Part shown: in pieces, positions 56,525 through 64,000 of the stretch
How the letters are laid out: every line of letters begins with the position of its first letter
Numbering within the stretch: position 1 is the first letter of the stretch
Assembly (NCBI RefSeq): GCF_016804325.1
Contig: NZ_CP043627.1
Coordinates: 62,001 to 126,000, forward strand
From: Methylobacterium aquaticum
Lineage (GTDB): Bacteria; Pseudomonadota; Alphaproteobacteria; Rhizobiales; Beijerinckiaceae
Length of the DNA: 64,000 nucleotides
Reading direction: 5' to 3'
Program-made: the position numbers and the translations under genes
Notes under the pieces: generated by a model
Seen by the model: only the letters and a program-made list of their open reading frames with translations
The model's database searches: none
Told to the model about the DNA's origin: nothing

Positions 56525-56850
56525 TCAGTTGAAGACCGCCTGGTAGGCGGCGGAGTCCGGGGGGACGCCCGTGGGCATGATCCGCTCGACATAGAGCGGC
56601 CCGATCTCGCCGAGAGCGGGATGCGTCAGCACGCAATCGCCCCCCGGAAGGGCCCCGCCGCCGCCGCCGGGCAGCCGAAGACCAGGGAGAACGCCGTGCG
56701 CGGGCTGCCCGCCATGGTCGAGTGGGGGGATTCCCGGCACGAGGCCAGGGTGACGGCCAGTTCCTGACCGCCCGGGCCCCGCAACGCGAAGCCGTCCCCC
56801 AGCAGGTCCGCAAAGGTCGCCGCCGAGACGGTGTCGAGCGCGACGGTCAC
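56525..56850 (-). pseudogene. DUF6916 family gene, frameshifted
   Basis: The upstream frame starts MTVALDTVSAATFADLLGDGFALRG and reads to TAFSLVFGCPAAAAG. The second frame supplies ALPGGDCVLTHPALGEIGPLYVERIMPTG ... YQAVFN, the typical DUF6916 ending. The switch falls at four G on the minus strand (C-run 56653-56656), where one added G joins the two into a protein of about 108 residues. The start overlaps the tail-collar stop by four bases. DUF6916 proteins accompany tail-collar proteins. Confidence 0.82.
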
Positions 56851-57530
56851 GGCCGGTCCGGGTAGAGGCCGACCAGCGCGATGACGAAGCTCATCGCCAG
56901 CGACGGCTGGTAGTTGGTGAACGGCTGGCCGGCGCCGGCATTGCCGATCGCCACGGTGCCGCCGGTGACGGTCGGGACGCTGAAGGTCTGCCCCGCGGTC
57001 GCGGCATTGCCCGTCACGGTCGTCGCCCCGTCTGCGAGGGGGGTCGTGGCGGGGGCGGGAGTTGCGGTGGCGGAGGTGTAGATCTTCGTGTTCGTACCCC
57101 CGCTCGCCCCCAGCAATGCCGTGTTCGAGGGACTCGCATTGCCTGCCACCGTCGACGCGACGTTGATCGCCACCTTCAGGGTGCCGGCCTGCGGCTGGAT
57201 GGTGACGGTCTGGCTGCCGGTAACCGCCGTGAACGTCGCGCCGTGGCTATGCACCGGCAGGTTGGTGAGCCCGAGCGTCGTGGTCGGGGTGCCGGTCGTC
57301 GTGGCGAGCGGGAAGTTGCTGCCCTGAGACACGCCGGTGCCGATGGGAGCGCGTCCCTGAAGGTCAGGCAGATTGAAGGTCGTACCGGGGTTGCCGCCGA
57401 ACGAATTTCCCATCAGGCTGTAAAGAGCCTGATACTGCATAATTTGCAACGATTGGCCCTGGCACATCGCATAGTTCCGCGGCGCCCAGTTCCAAGGTAT
57501 CATGAATATCATTCCAATCATCGGATCCAT
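56847..57530 (-). CDS. Tail-collar (microcystin-dependent protein-like) fibre protein
   Basis: 227 residues. It starts MDPMIGMIFMIPWNWAPRNYAMCQGQSLQIMQYQALYSLMGNSFGGNPGTTFNLPDLQGRAPIG (signature pieces: NWAPRNYAMCQGQ and FNLPDLQGRAPIG), then a Thr/Ala/Gly-rich stalk (THSHGA, TATPAPATTPLADGATTVTG) and the LAMSFVIALVGLYPD end. Phage_Tail_Collar domain proteins of this sort sit on chromosomes and may form surface or contractile-injection fibres. Its upstream flank is AT-rich, and a decayed paralogue lies just upstream. Confidence 0.85.
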   Translation of the reverse strand: MDPMIGMIFMIPWNWAPRNYAMCQGQSLQIMQYQALYSLMGNSFGGNPGTTFNLPDLQGRAPIGTGVSQGSNFPLATTTGTPTTTLGLTNLPVHSHGATFTAVTGSQTVTIQPQAGTLKVAINVASTVAGNASPSNTALLGASGGTNTKIYTSATATPAPATTPLADGATTVTGNAATAGQTFSVPTVTGGTVAIGNAGAGQPFTNYQPSLAMSFVIALVGLYPDRP

Positions 57531-58011: not shown

Positions 58012-58734
58012 CGCCCCCTGAGGTCGCAATTCCTTAATGGCCTGTAATGCACAAAGATTATTCTTGACCGAATCACTTTCACATTTCGAATCGCCCAGCG
58101 CCGAATCTGATAGACGACGATGTGTCTCTGCAAGCAGCATTTGGAAAAAATTTTACGAGCTTCCTGGAGAGGTGATTAGAACATGAATAGAAAAATATTA
58201 CAATACCTAGTCTGTTTTCGCGTCATGTCGAACCTTCGGGAAACGGCGTGGGCCGCGTGTTACACTCGGCGGTGCCGCGCGATCCCCCGCCCTTGTCCTG
58301 TCGCAAGGGGAAGCGGGACGCTTCCGCCGTAGAGGGCCGGCACGAGGACTCCTCGTCGCGCACGCGCCATCGCTCCCGATGACCCGTGTGGGAAAAATCT
58401 CGTTCTTTATGTAATATTGATCATTACTTTCTTGAAATAAATCTGCTTCTAAAAAATAAAATATGTATTTATTGTGTGATTATTTGATTTTTATGAGAGA
58501 TAAATACATGTCAAGTGACAGCTATGAATAACTTGTCAGGGCAGGCAGTCGTCACTATGGCGAAAATGCCACTTTCGGTCGGTTTGACGATCGTATGCGG
58601 CGGAAAAATCATTTCCTCTCTTTCGCCGTGACGTGGCCGCGGGCATTTTGCCGACCGATATGCCGCGCGACTGGACATGCCCGCCGAGGGAGGGGCTTGT
58701 CGAGCGGACCGTAAATGAATTTAGGAGAATTTCG
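58012..58734 (+). other. AT-rich promoter island upstream of the collagen-Hint gene
   Basis: About 720 bp with no convincing gene; the 58384-58560 part is far more AT-rich than anything else in the window. A 50-codon frame at 58183-58332 has a purine-rich site (GGAGAGG) but an unremarkable Arg/Cys-rich product. A perfect 10-bp inverted repeat lies at 58463-58509. Such DNA is typical of MucR/H-NS-silenced accessory promoters. Confidence 0.5.
58463..58509. promoter_or_regulatory. Inverted repeat in the AT-rich island
   Basis: ATGTATTTAT (58463-58472) and ATAAATACAT (58500-58509) are perfect inverted copies 27 bp apart. It may be a regulator-binding site or hairpin for the collagen-Hint gene 226 bp downstream. 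Confidence 0.5.
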
Positions 58735-61700
58735 ATGACTCAGTATTTGATTACTCTGAATGGTACAGGTGGACTCGACAACCAACAGTACAATTTTTAT
58801 TATGGTAATGCTACCACGACAGCTATTTCTAATTATCTTGGGACTGTATACGGACAGTTCACCAATCAACCAGGCACGAGATTCCCGTATTCGTTTCAAT
58901 ATATTGCGGACGATACAACAGCGTTCGGCGTCGCCGTTAGAGATGCGACGCGTTTTACAGTTCAGAATGCGAGCGGCGCCACCGGGGTGGAATTTTCCGA
59001 CGCCGTCAACGATGGTCAAGGATCGACGGGAACGAATTCTAACTATAGCGAAACCCTGACCGCCACCCGGGTTGTGCTCAACCAGGGCCCGCAAGGTGCG
59101 ACCGGCGCGCAGGGCGCCACCGGCACCCAGGGTGCGACCGGTGCCCAGGGCGTGACCGGTGCCCAGGGCGTGACCGGTGCCCAGGGCGTGACCGGTGCCC
59201 AGGGGACCACGGGCGCCCAGGGTGCGACCGGTGCCCAGGGCGTGACCGGTGCCCAGGGCGTGACCGGCGCCCAGGGGACCACGGGCGCCCAGGGTGCGAC
59301 CGGCGCCCAGGGTGCGACCGGCACCCAGGGCGCAACCGGCGCGCAAGGCGCGACCGGCGCCCAGGGCGTGACCGGCGCTCAGGGAACAACGGGCGCTCAG
59401 GGCGCTACCGGCACCCAGGGTGCGACGGGCGTGCAGGGCGCCACCGGTGCCCAGGGCGTGACCGGCGCTCAGGGAACGACGGGCGCTCAGGGCGCTACCG
59501 GCACCCAGGGTGCGACGGGCGTGCAGGGCGCCACCGGTGCCCAGGGTGTCACCGGCGCTCAGGGAACGACGGGCGCTCAGGGCGCTACCGGCACCCAGGG
59601 TGCGACGGGCGCGCAGGGTGCCACCGGTGTCCAGGGTGTCACCGGCGCTCAGGGAACGACGGGCGCTCAGGGCGCTACCGGCACCCAGGGCGCGACGGGC
59701 GCGCAGGGTGCCACCGGTGCCCAGGGTGTCACCGGCGCCCAGGGGACTACGGGTGCCCAGGGCGCCACCGGCACCCAAGGAGCGACCGGCGTCCAGGGTG
59801 CCACCGGTGCCCAGGGCGTGACCGGCGCTCAGGGGACTACGGGTGCCCAGGGCGCCACCGGAGTTCAGGGTGCGACCGGCGCGCAGGGTGCCACCGGCGC
59901 CCAGGGCGTGACCGGTGCCCAGGGGACCACGGGCGCGCAGGGTGCGACCGGCGTTCAGGGTGCAACCGGCGCCCAGGGCGTGACCGGTGCCCAAGGGACC
60001 ACGGGCGCGCAGGGCGCGACGGGCGTGCAGGGCGCCACCGGCGACCAGGGTGCTCAGGGCACGACTGGTGCCCAGGGTGCCACCGGGTCCCAGGGCGCGA
60101 CGGGTGCCCAGGGTGCCACCGGGTCCGCGGGTGCCACCGGCTCCCAGGGCGCAACGGGGGCCCAGGGTGCCACCGGGTCCGCGGGCGCCACCGGGTCCCA
60201 GGGCGCGACGGGTGCTCAGGGTGCCACCGGCTCCCAGGGCGCAACGGGGGCCCAGGGTGCGACGGGGGCGCAGGGCGTCACTGGCGCCCAGGGTGCCACC
60301 GGGTCCGCGGGCGCCACCGGTTCCCAGGGCGCGACGGGTGCTCAGGGTGCCACAGGGTCCGCGGGTGCCACCGGCTCCCAGGGCGCAACGGGGGCCCAGG
60401 GTGCCACCGGGTCCGCGGGCGCCACCGGGTCCCAGGGCGCGACGGGCGCTCAGGGCGCCACCGGTTCCCAGGGCGCGACGGGTGCTCAGGGTGCGACGGG
60501 GGCGCAGGGCGTCACTGGCGCCCAGGGTGCCACCGGCGAACAAGGCGCGCAGGGTGTGACCGGCTCGCAAGGTGCGCCGGGTACCACCGGCTCCCAGGGC
60601 GCGACGGGGACCCAGGGTGCCACCGGTTCCCAGGGCGCGACGGGTGCTCAGGGTGCCACCGGCTCCGCGGGTGCCACCGGCTCCCAGGGCGCAACGGGGG
60701 CCCAGGGTGCCACCGGGTCCGCGGGCGCCACCGGGTCCCAGGGCGCGACGGGTGCTCAGGGTGCCACCGGCTCCCAGGGCGCAACGGGGGCCCAGGGTGC
60801 CACCGGGTCCGCGGGCGCCACCGGGTCCCAGGGCGCGACGGGTGCTCAGGGTGCCACCGGGTCCGCGGGTGCCACCGGCTCCCAGGGCGCAACGGGGGCC
60901 CAGGGTGCCACCGGGTCCCAGGGCGCGACGGGTGCTCAGGGTGCCACCGGCTCCGCGGGTGCCACCGGCTCCCAGGGCGCAACGGGGGCCCAGGGTGCCA
61001 CCGGGTCCGCGGGCGCCACCGGGTCCCAGGGCGCGACGGGTGCTCAGGGTGCCACCGGGTCCGCGGGTGCCACGGGCGCGACCGGCCCGACGGGTGCCGA
61101 CGGCCCGACCGGGGCCACCGGCCCGACCGGTCCGGTCATCTGCTTCGCGTCCGGAACGATGATCCTGACGCCGGAGGGTGAGCGTCCGGTCGAGGCCCTG
61201 CGGCCCGGCGACGCCGTCGTCACCGCTTCGGGCGAGACGGTCGCCGTCGCTTGGGTCGGTCACCGCCACCTCGACCTGCGGCGCCACCCGCAGCCCGAGC
61301 GGGCCCAGCCGGTCCGGGTCGCCGCGCATGCCTTCGGCCCCGGCCTGCCGCACCGCGACCTCGTCGTCTCGCCCGGCCACGCGCTCTTCGTCGAGGACGT
61401 GCTGATCCCGGCCGGCGTGCTCGTCAACGGCACGTCGGTGGCGCAGCTCGACCGCTCGGAGGTGGTCTACCACCACGTCGAGCTGCCGGTTCACGACATA
61501 CTGGTCGCCGACGGGATGCCCGCCGAGAGCTACCTCGATTGCGGCAACCGCGGCACCTTCGAGAACCACGACGGCCCGGTCACCCTGCACCCGGACCTCG
61601 TCGCCTCGGCGCTGAACCTGGAGCTGGCCTGCGCGCCGGTCGTCCTCCACGGCCCGGTCGTCGACCGGGTCCGGGCCCGGCTCGCCGCCAAGGGCGAGGT

Positions 61701-61746
61701 CAAGACCGAGCGCTCGGTCCTCGCGCGCCTCTTGCGGCGGGCTTAA
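58735..61746 (+). CDS. Collagen-like protein with C-terminal Hint autoprocessing domain
   Basis: 1003 residues from ATG 58735 (AGGAG 7 bases upstream). Residues 1-117 are a polar beta-rich head coded by much AT-richer DNA, with no signal peptide. Residues 118-800 are uninterrupted Gly-X-Y triplets (about 227), mostly [12 protein letters not shown] and GAT-GSQ/GSA. Residues 803-1003 form a Hint_2-type domain beginning with C803 ([30 protein letters not shown]), with [65 protein letters not shown]. Cys803 and the SPGHALF histidine are the expected catalytic residues. It could self-cleave at C803. A two-domain glycosyltransferase follows. Confidence 0.9.
59086..61134 (+). repeat. Collagen-coding tandem repeat (9/18-bp units)
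   Basis: About 2.05 kb of GGY-GCN-ACN-GGY-GCN-CAR type units, with higher-order 36-72-bp blocks copied several times (for example the ...[29 protein letters not shown] pattern from 60100 onward). The glycine register is kept from residue 118 to 799, so selection or purifying recombination preserves the frame. Prone to slippage. Confidence 0.95.
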
Positions 61747-61971: not shown

Positions 61972-64000
61972 ATGACCCCGTCCGGCCAGACCGTCTGCCT
62001 CGCGATGATCGTCAAGAACGAGGCGCCGGTGATCCGCCGGTGCCTGGAATCGGTGCGCCCGCTCATCGACCACTGGATCGTCGTCGATACCGGTTCCACC
62101 GACGGGACCCAGGATCTCGTGCGGGCAATCCTGGCCGACCTGCCGGGCGCGCTGGTCGAGCGCCCCTGGGTCGATTTCGCCCACAACCGCTCCGAGGCCC
62201 TGGCGCTGGCGCGCCCGCACGGCACCTACACCCTGGTCATCGACGCCGACGACGAGATGCTCCTGCCGCCTGGCTACGGGCTGCCCGACCTCACGGCGGA
62301 GGCCTACGAGGTCACCATCACGGACGCCCCGCTGATCTACCGGCGCACCCAGCTGGTGAAGAACACCCTGCCGTGGCGCTACCGTGGGGTGCTGCACGAA
62401 TTCATCGAATGTGCGGAAGCGACGAACCGCGCCGTCATCGACCTGACCATGCGGCGCAACCACGACGGCGCCCGCCGCCGCGACGGCGAGACCTACCGGC
62501 GCGACGCCGCGATCCTGGAGGCGGCGCTGGCGACGGAGACGGACCCGTTCTTCATCGCCCGCTACACCTTCTACCTCGCCCAGAGCTACCGCGATTGCGG
62601 TGCCCACGCGCAGGCGGTGGCCGCCTACCTGCGGCGGGCGGATCTCGGATACTGGCAGGAGGAGGTCTACGTCGCGCTGCTTGCCGCCGCCCGGCTGATG
62701 CCGGGCCTCGGGCGCCCCGTGGACGACACCCTGGCGGTCTGTCGCCGGGCGATCGCGCTCTGCCCGCACCGGGTCGAGGCTCACCACTATGCCAGCCACG
62801 TCTGCCGCCTCGCCGAGCGCTACGAGGAGGGCTTCCGCTTCGCCGAGGCGGGCCTGTCCCTGCCCCCGCCGGAGGGCGCCCTGTTCATCGAGCCCTGGAT
62901 CTACGAATACGGCCTGCGCGACGAATACGCGGTCAACGCCTACTGGGCCGGCCATCACTGGCACAGCCTCGCCGCCGGCCTCGACCTGATCGCCTGCCCG
63001 ACGGCGCCGGAGGGCGAGCGCCGGCGCTTCGCCGCCAATGCCCGCTTCGCCCTCGAGAAGCTGCCGGTTCCGATCGAGGGCCGGCGCGGCTTCCTGTCGA
63101 CGACCCGCCCGGGCATCGGCCCGAGCGACCTGCCGGGCTTCTGGTCGGGCCTGTCGCGCAAGGCCCCGTGGCTGCCGACGCGCCCGCAGGGCGGCACGGA
63201 GCTGATGCACGAGGGCCTGTCCCGACGCCTCGGCCCGGCGCTCGAACGCATCGCCCTGTGCCTGAACGGCTACGACGAGGCCCGGATCGACGACGGGCGT
63301 CCGCTCGTGGTCTGGGTCCATCACGCCACCGACCAGCCGGCCGTGGCCTGGATGCGCGAGCCCGCCCGGGTCGCCCGCGTGGCGCGCTTCGTCTTCGTCT
63401 CGGAATGGCAGCGGGCGCAGTTCCTGGCGACCTTCGGCCTGCCGGCCGAACGCTGCCTCGTCCTGCGCAACGCCACCGAGGTGCCCGAGCGCGACCGCGG
63501 GCCCGCCCGGCGCCGTCCCCTCAAGGTCGCCTATACCAGCACGCCCTATCGCGGCCTCGCGGTGCTGCTGGACGCCTGGGCGCAGGCCGCGCCCGAGGAT
63601 GCCGAGCTACACGTCTGGTCGTCGCACAAGCTCTACGGCCCGGGGGCGGACGACGCGCCTTACGCCGATCTCTACGCCCGCGCCGCCGCGCTGCCGAACG
63701 TGCATTACCACGGGCTCCTGCCCAATGCCGAGCTGCGCGCCGCGCTCGCCGACATCGACATCCTGGCCTATCCCAACACCTTCGCGGAGACCTCCTGCCT
63801 CGCGGTCATCGAGGCGATGGCGGCGGGCTGCCGGGTGATCTGCCCGAGCCACGGCGCGCTGCCGGAGACCACCGCGGGATTCGCCCGCCTCTATCCTCAC
63901 GTCGCCGATCCGGCCGAGCATGCCCGCGCCTTCGCCGCTCTCCTGGCCGAGGAACTGGCCGATCCGTGGCAGGGCCGGCCCGAGCGGGCGGCGGCGCAGC
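61972..64000 (+). CDS. Bifunctional glycosyltransferase GT2-TPR-GT4 (3' end outside window)
   Basis: At least 676 residues, open to the window edge. The N-terminal GT2 domain has CLAMIVKNEAPVIRRCLESV, WIVVDTGSTDGT and the DXD-type VIDADDE, followed by the acceptor end NHDGARRRDGETYRRDAAIL. The middle holds helical TPR-like repeats (about 180-310). The C-terminal GT4-like domain has FVFVSEWQRAQFLATFGLP, VAYTSTPYRGLAVLLDAW and the NTFAETSCLAVIEAMAAGC nucleotide-sugar motif. It lies 225 bp after the collagen-Hint gene on the same strand; the Thr-rich repeats are a plausible acceptor (inference by analogy with Bacillus BclA). Confidence 0.88.
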   Translation, partial: MTPSGQTVCLAMIVKNEAPVIRRCLESVRPLIDHWIVVDTGSTDGTQDLVRAILADLPGALVERPWVDFAHNRSEALALARPHGTYTLVIDADDEMLLPPGYGLPDLTAEAYEVTITDAPLIYRRTQLVKNTLPWRYRGVLHEFIECAEATNRAVIDLTMRRNHDGARRRDGETYRRDAAILEAALATETDPFFIARYTFYLAQSYRDCGAHAQAVAAYLRRADLGYWQEEVYVALLAAARLMPGLGRPVDDTLAVCRRAIALCPHRVEAHHYASHVCRLAERYEEGFRFAEAGLSLPPPEGALFIEPWIYEYGLRDEYAVNAYWAGHHWHSLAAGLDLIACPTAPEGERRRFAANARFALEKLPVPIEGRRGFLSTTRPGIGPSDLPGFWSGLSRKAPWLPTRPQGGTELMHEGLSRRLGPALERIALCLNGYDEARIDDGRPLVVWVHHATDQPAVAWMREPARVARVARFVFVSEWQRAQFLATFGLPAERCLVLRNATEVPERDRGPARRRPLKVAYTSTPYRGLAVLLDAWAQAAPEDAELHVWSSHKLYGPGADDAPYADLYARAAALPNVHYHGLLPNAELRAALADIDILAYPNTFAETSCLAVIEAMAAGCRVICPSHGALPETTAGFARLYPHVADPAEHARAFAALLAEELADPWQGRPERAAAQ

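Follow-up and report, generated by a model that had tools for sequence, protein, structure and literature searches.

We identified, in a 64,000-nucleotide window (the whole stretch of DNA analysed, corresponding to positions 62001-126000 of contig C1 in a source genome of 7.28 Mb), a gene whose protein joins a variable head, a long collagen stalk and a C-terminal Hint_2 domain. The reading that best accounts for this protein, to which we assign a probability of roughly 0.58, is a surface or secreted stalk with a changing head, carrying sugars placed on its Thr residues by enzymes of its own locus, and ending in a Hint domain that removes itself at Ile802-Cys803. The results suggest that the locus itself processes and sugar-coats its surface stalk.

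Architecture of the collagen-Hint gene

We determined the boundaries of the head, stalk, Hint domain and tail, together with those of the neighboring genes (Table 1). The results confirmed the architecture described in the initial annotation, including a Hint_2 domain starting at C803 and followed by a later SPGH histidine, which were located as Cys803 and His882. A single residue, Ile802, separates the last collagen triplet (ending at residue 801) from Cys803. The AT-rich codons ascribed to the head were also borne out, GC3 being 0.50 over the head and rising to 0.81 over the collagen and 0.95 over the Hint. The head had been described as devoid of a signal peptide, and on inspection by eye none was seen in the collagen-Hint protein. 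The head (residues 1-117) gave no match in Pfam or NCBIfam, and its identification as a known adhesin was rejected on the same ground, as it belongs to no family in either collection.

Table 1. Features of the collagen-Hint locus, in window coordinates
Feature	Coordinates	Strand	Basis
Phage tail collar domain gene, divergent neighbor (start codon inferred)	56847..57530	-	
Ribosome-binding site AGGAG, 7 bases 5' of ATG 58735	58723..58727	+	Read in sequence
Collagen-Hint gene, 1003 aa	58735..61746	+	Translation of frame, Pfam
Variable head, residues 1-117, without known family	58735..59085	+	Pfam, NCBIfam, codon and head comparison
228 uninterrupted Gly-X-Y triplets, residues 118-801, Thr/Gln-rich, nearly Pro-free	59086..61137	+	Pfam, residue count
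Predicted scissile bond Ile802-Cys803; Cys803 as Hint residue 1	61138..61143	+	Pfam, conservation
Hint_2 domain, residues 802-936; conserved Cys803, His882 (61378-61380), His914, His920, Glu931	61138..61542	+	Pfam, alignments
C-terminal tail, residues 937-1003 (67 aa), predicted helical at low confidence, end LLARLLRRA	61543..61743	+	
Glycosyltransferase GT2 + GT4 + FkbM methyltransferase gene, 983 aa, continuing past the window	61972..64000	+	Pfam

A nearly proline-free collagen stalk

The stalk matched the Pfam Collagen family (PF01391) at 3e-105, and its longest perfect Gly-x-x run covered residues 118-801, with GAT and GAQ predominating. About 227 uninterrupted triplets with abundant Thr at X and Y had been estimated at the outset, and the count gave 228, with Thr (114) and Gln (99) leading at the Y position and Ala (147), Ser (31), Val (23) and Thr (20) at the X position. 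The underlying DNA is a degenerate tandem repeat, with 36.5 copies of a 54-base unit (77% matches) and a 90-base period among others, and the triplet run is therefore not a product of chance. Being nearly free of Pro, the stalk might not form a stable triple helix. The rise of a collagen triple helix is 0.286 nm per residue, and at that value the 228 triplets would probably form a stalk about 0.2 micrometre long if they adopt a triple helix. Glycosylation of Thr would be a plausible stabilizer of a stalk with almost no Pro.

In its Gly-X-Y repeats and its Thr in Y, the stalk resembles the BclA-type collagens of Bacillus and the Scl adhesins. Thr in Y is typical of bacterial collagens and BclA is glycosylated, according to excerpts of PMC8968730, and the glycosylation genes found near the collagen-Hint gene would suit a glycosylated collagen of the BclA type. 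The stalk differs from BclA and Scl in composition, with 6 Pro among its 684 residues compared with 19% Pro in X for bacterial collagens overall (excerpts of PMC8968730), and the protein ends in a Hint domain instead of the ends known there. Bacterial collagens are mostly not cleaved in the account given in the same excerpts, BclA1 of C. difficile being cleaved by a little-known process (PMC8968730).

The Hint domain retains conserved Cys and His residues and a predicted HINT fold

The initial annotation had named a Hint search without matches and loss of the C803/His pair in close homologues among its refuting outcomes, and a structure prediction among its checks; neither sequence-based test refuted it, and the predicted fold was that of a HINT domain. 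The Hint search gave a strong match to Hint_2 (PF13403) over residues 802-936 (8.3e-46; 156-161 bits, against a gathering cut-off of 28.4). Cys1 and the block-B His were present in 136/136 complete Hint_2 copies. They occurred in 92/92 complete, non-identical copies, 87 of which carried the His as [ST][PAS]xH and 5 as SQxH or SHxH, and in 44/44 further copies (40 with the usual motif, the others with SHGH, TRGH and, in two cases, SRQH). Additionally, Cys803, His882, His914 and Glu931 were invariant in both alignments that we built (53 and 29 sequences, 9 common to the two), and His920 was invariant in one alignment and almost invariant in the second. The dN/dS of the Hint against the window gene was 0.27-0.38 in 6 comparisons, all of them involving the window, indicating moderate constraint only.

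An AlphaFold2 model of the Hint domain and tail, built from 11 sequences, predicted a HINT fold with a mean pLDDT of 71 and a pTM of 0.65 (pLDDT 77-93 over residues 11-130, in blocks of ten); confidence in the tail was low, and of five models two turned out poor, at mean pLDDT 43 and 36. When the predicted model was compared with solved structures by Foldseek, the top match was the Clostridium BIL 2lwy (1.7e-6), followed by Tetrahymena BIL2 and many inteins (prob 1.00), with Hedgehog 1at0 at rank 23 (5.2e-4). Similarly, a profile of the 53 Hint_2 domains searched against PDB sequences placed 2lwy first, as a distant match (3.1e-5) covering profile positions 5-41 only.

By eye, no intein-like block G (C-terminal His-Asn) was seen at the end of the domain, which reads AESYLDCGN, and no invariant or nearly invariant Asn was seen at the domain end in the 53 Hint_2 sequences. 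The domain is thus like inteins in its block A and fold and unlike them in that no C-terminal His-Asn plus nucleophile was seen at its end, for which reason splicing is not expected. Type-B BILs, which are without block G, cleave without splicing (excerpts of PMC4031507). Likened by described features, the Hint of the window agrees with a type-B BIL in its HINT fold, Cys1, block-B His and the absence of a visible C-terminal His-Asn, and variable protein regions are the setting of BILs too (excerpts of PMC5874633); it departs from one in its passenger, a collagen stalk abutting Cys1 and linked to a glycosylation locus. With Hedgehog/Hog proteins it shares the HINT fold, Cys1, the block-B His and an extra C-terminal segment predicted to be helical, but what precedes the Hint is collagen and a head unmatched in Pfam, not a Hedge domain, and BIL and inteins rank above Hedgehog in the fold search. 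By analogy, the type-B BIL offers the best functional model for this Hint.

On that model, the Hint_2 domain would act once. Cys803 would attack the carbonyl of Ile802 in an N-to-S acyl shift, with His882 helping, and the resulting Cys803 thioester would be resolved by water or by a small or surface nucleophile. The head and stalk would then be freed, residue 802 becoming their C-terminus, and the Hint domain and tail would be discarded, much as in type-B BILs. A Pro at position -1 is usually bad for the N-to-S acyl shift. The residue before Cys1 was Pro in 25/73 other Hints and in 1/19 collagen Hints, and some members of the family may therefore not cleave by this route. We found no experimental work on Hint_2 in the accessible parts of the literature searched.

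Linkage to a glycosylation locus

The collagen-Hint gene is followed by a gene for a GT2/GT4/FkbM protein (GT), which showed a weak likeness to the peptide glycosyltransferase SunS (1e-6, far below the cut-off). On the 3' side of the GT gene lies a further gene (NHYL) encoding DVNHYL/GAREGRRPN repeats, of 275 residues here and about 225 in several relatives. The initial annotation was silent on these neighboring glycosylation genes.

A GT and/or NHYL homologue was found at 17/20 collagen-Hint loci compared with 0/11 other Hint loci (Fisher 4e-6, ignoring shared ancestry), counts that are not independent since the loci come from related species; the downstream flank covered at the 11 other loci was about 0.4 kb at L116 and 3.9-7.4 kb at the rest. 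GT homologues were present at 15/20 collagen-Hint loci (9 over most of the GT length, 6 over the GT2 part only) and NHYL at 16/20, two loci having NHYL only. Both glycosylation genes were absent from the flanks covered at three of the 20 loci, L107, L109 and the partial copy L021; the genomes of L107 (G050) and L109 (G049) carry NHYL elsewhere. At L103 and L108, the glycosylation genes adjoin the stalk gene and are not all co-directional with it.

Of the 111 genomes, 51 gave an NHYL match with an E value of 1e-20 or lower, and 18 a strong one (1e-60 or better, a cut chosen after the gap was visible); 17 of these 18 have a collagen-Hint gene. In the 18th, G104, the contig starts inside the glycosyltransferase gene, and the assembly therefore does not reach the position where a collagen gene would lie. 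G085 has a collagen-Hint gene without strong NHYL, and its locus adjoins a homologue of the GT2 part. NHYL-like repeats were fused to glycosyltransferase domains (RgpF, WsaF, GT2, GT4) in 6/6 other proteins examined, five taken from the weaker NHYL matches and one from a locus of the present set. Upstream, a phage tail collar gene was found at 12/16 collagen loci with usable upstream sequence compared with 0/11 others. In the favored reading, the Thr residues in Y would be O-glycosylated by the enzyme of the neighboring GT gene.

Divergence of the head

We compared the window gene with its relatives at L099 and L101. Against L099, dS reached 1.54 in the head, near saturation, compared with 0.09 in the Hint. 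At the nucleotide level, the Hint and tail were 95.9% identical to L099 over 605 bases and the head gave only short aligned segments of up to 38 bases, with 77% identity in the spacer 3' of the gene and 68-70% in parts of the 5' region. Similarly, protein identity to the window was 49% (L099) and 31% (L101) for the head, compared with 95% and 77%, respectively, for the Hint. This pattern fits head exchange or rapid diversification of a tip, as seen in adhesins, and the head may accordingly be pictured as the fast-changing tip of a surface or secreted stalk with a putative adhesive role. The chimera suggested in the initial annotation draws some support from the difference in dS, but Hint domains homogenized by gene conversion could produce a similar contrast between head and Hint.

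Distribution of the collagen-Hint form

The protein is not an isolated oddity. Hint_2 occurs in 73/111 genomes of the genus Methylobacterium, and collagen abuts the Hint in at least 18/111, a minimum figure given that the reading was confined to the best-scoring matches. In the 20 rows counted as collagen-Hint, under a rule that allowed a gap of up to 5 residues, the aligned Hint started 0-2 residues after the end of the collagen. The nearest named relative of the Hint is that of M. indicum (95% identity). We placed 92 Hints in a quick tree, which was built on few columns, left numerous forks unresolved and would cluster near-copies in any case. In this tree, 19/20 collagen Hints grouped with a single Microvirga Hint that carries no collagen (support 90, open node). 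The collagen-Hint of G085 was placed apart from them, which implies no fewer than two changes; shuffling gave a mean of 18.4.

Outside the genus, no collagen-Hint was found among the best ~30 loci of each genome search. One search sampled 397 genomes of the order, scoring 6 candidates in each, and the other 385 genomes of the class, scoring 7 in each at an E limit of 1e-20. Nor was one found in 23 viral-contig loci, in 21 of which the Hint frame could be read, and phage records gave no match. A relative of the Hint was present in 217 plasmid records, of which 40 were surveyed and 3 read in detail; the one further collagen-Hint case in the samples was a Methylobacterium plasmid. Rare cases outside the genus could be missed in samples of this kind.

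The source genome contains 8 Hint_2 matches. A partial second collagen-Hint copy (L014/L021; G000:C1 ~3.66 Mb), with an intact Hint, about 25-27 triplets and unrelated sequence upstream, is probably decaying. Five other Hint_2 matches sit on different heads, one of them an M10-like metalloprotease. At L016 (G000:C1:5628228), a Hint_2-like N-terminal match lies, by eye, in an apparent intein inside a DNA cytosine methyltransferase. At L020:5502-7424, an M10/matrixin-like protease with a serralysin-type C-terminal match is followed by Hint_2. On the Commensalibacter melissae plasmid pCAMU (L027:1650-6182), a 1511-aa repeat protein with a sub-threshold AIDA stalk match has Hint_2 near its end, and the extra region after this Hint_2, which has no Pfam match, resembles the end of L026 by eye.

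Alternative fates of the stalk and Hint domain

Alternatively, a surface molecule (glycan, lipid or protein) bound by the tail might attack the Cys803 thioester through a hydroxyl or an amine, in the manner of Hedgehog proteins, and so anchor the stalk covalently. The tail is predicted, at low confidence, to be helical over positions 177-192 and 197-205, and recalls the sterol-recognition region (SRR) that follows the Hint of Hedgehog and is a proposed helix-loop-helix (excerpts of PMC9163320). Its terminal decamer is basic and, by hydrophobic moment, amphipathic to a borderline degree (4-7% of its own shuffles were as high, in 7 rows; the first-helix value of the L032 row was left out), and a module common to passengers as diverse as an M10-like protease, a protein with a sub-threshold AIDA stalk and collagen would suit a transfer function. 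No acceptor is known, however, and we consider this outcome rather unlikely. Hopanoid was tried as an obligate acceptor for the whole family and rejected: squalene-hopene cyclase was matched in 28/55 Hint_2-positive genomes (27 over the cut-off) and unmatched in the other 27, so it cannot have that role. The cyclase is present in all 18 collagen-Hint genomes, and a hopanoid acceptor within Methylobacterium is possible. A wider form of the proposal, in which a general, sortase-like Hint_2 module would join the glycosylated stalk and other leaderless adhesins and proteases covalently to a glycan, lipid or protein acceptor on the outer surface of Alphaproteobacteria, also appears unlikely to us.

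Collagens need registration domains, and procollagen C-propeptides are removable folding aids of this sort. The Hint of the window, being C-terminal and abutting the stalk, might similarly align three chains, help the triple helix to start and then leave; this is improbable given that 72/92 Hint_2 copies are carried by non-collagen proteins, and HINT domains are not known to act as trimerizers. A Hint that does not cleave at all, and serves only as a C-terminal module for export or anchoring, would be in keeping with the varied passengers in which no signal peptide was seen by eye. The protein ends also hint at C-terminal recognition, with a terminal Ala in 73/92 and Ala-Ala in 43/92 Hint_2 proteins compared with 18/84 and 1/84, respectively, in background genes picked by a GC3 rule. 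The retention of Cys1 and His in every one of the 136 copies is nevertheless hard to explain without catalysis, making a non-cleaving Hint quite improbable. As for secretion, a crude motif scan for type 1 systems near 59 Hint loci gave a single ABC ATPase and nothing resembling HlyD. Since a signal peptide was not seen either, these results do not account for export of the stalk.

Relation to previous work and significance

No description of a collagen-Hint protein or of Hint_2 function was found in the accessible literature, excerpts of PMC2362128, PMC11999647 and PMC12487129 included, subscription literature being outside the scope of the search. PF13403 was enriched in fast-growing marine bacteria in a 2025 study (excerpts of PMC12487129). 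Hint_2 is a domain common in Alphaproteobacteria, as its frequency in the genus and in plasmid records illustrates, for which the literature searched offered no functional account. The locus sets a predicted Hint_2 scissile bond directly against a long collagen rod, within a conserved glycosylation locus. If Hint_2 transfers its passenger, bacteria would have a Hedgehog-like route of covalent anchoring, and collagen engineering would have at its disposal a self-cleaving tag that occurs naturally at the C-terminal end of a bacterial collagen.

Other stalk and RTX proteins of the source genome

The same genome encodes a second type of stalk (L005:661-2562, L023; G000:C1 ~5.23 Mb), in which a head and 65 collagen triplets are followed by RTX repeats and the end FFFAA, without a Hint. 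This collagen-RTX protein suggests that collagen stalks can be combined with exchangeable modules at the C-terminus. Among the six RTX proteins of the genome that were examined, 3/6 end in the style of ASDILF, ESDFLF or SSDFFF, and 1/6 has an Ala-Ala end, namely the collagen-RTX protein, which is also one of the three with an ASDILF-style end and which has its Ala-Ala in common with many Hint_2 proteins. On contig G000:C5 (40,707 bases), RTX matches recur with a fixed spacing of 26,394 bases, a pattern that looks like the overlapping assembly of a circular replicon of ~26.4 kb.
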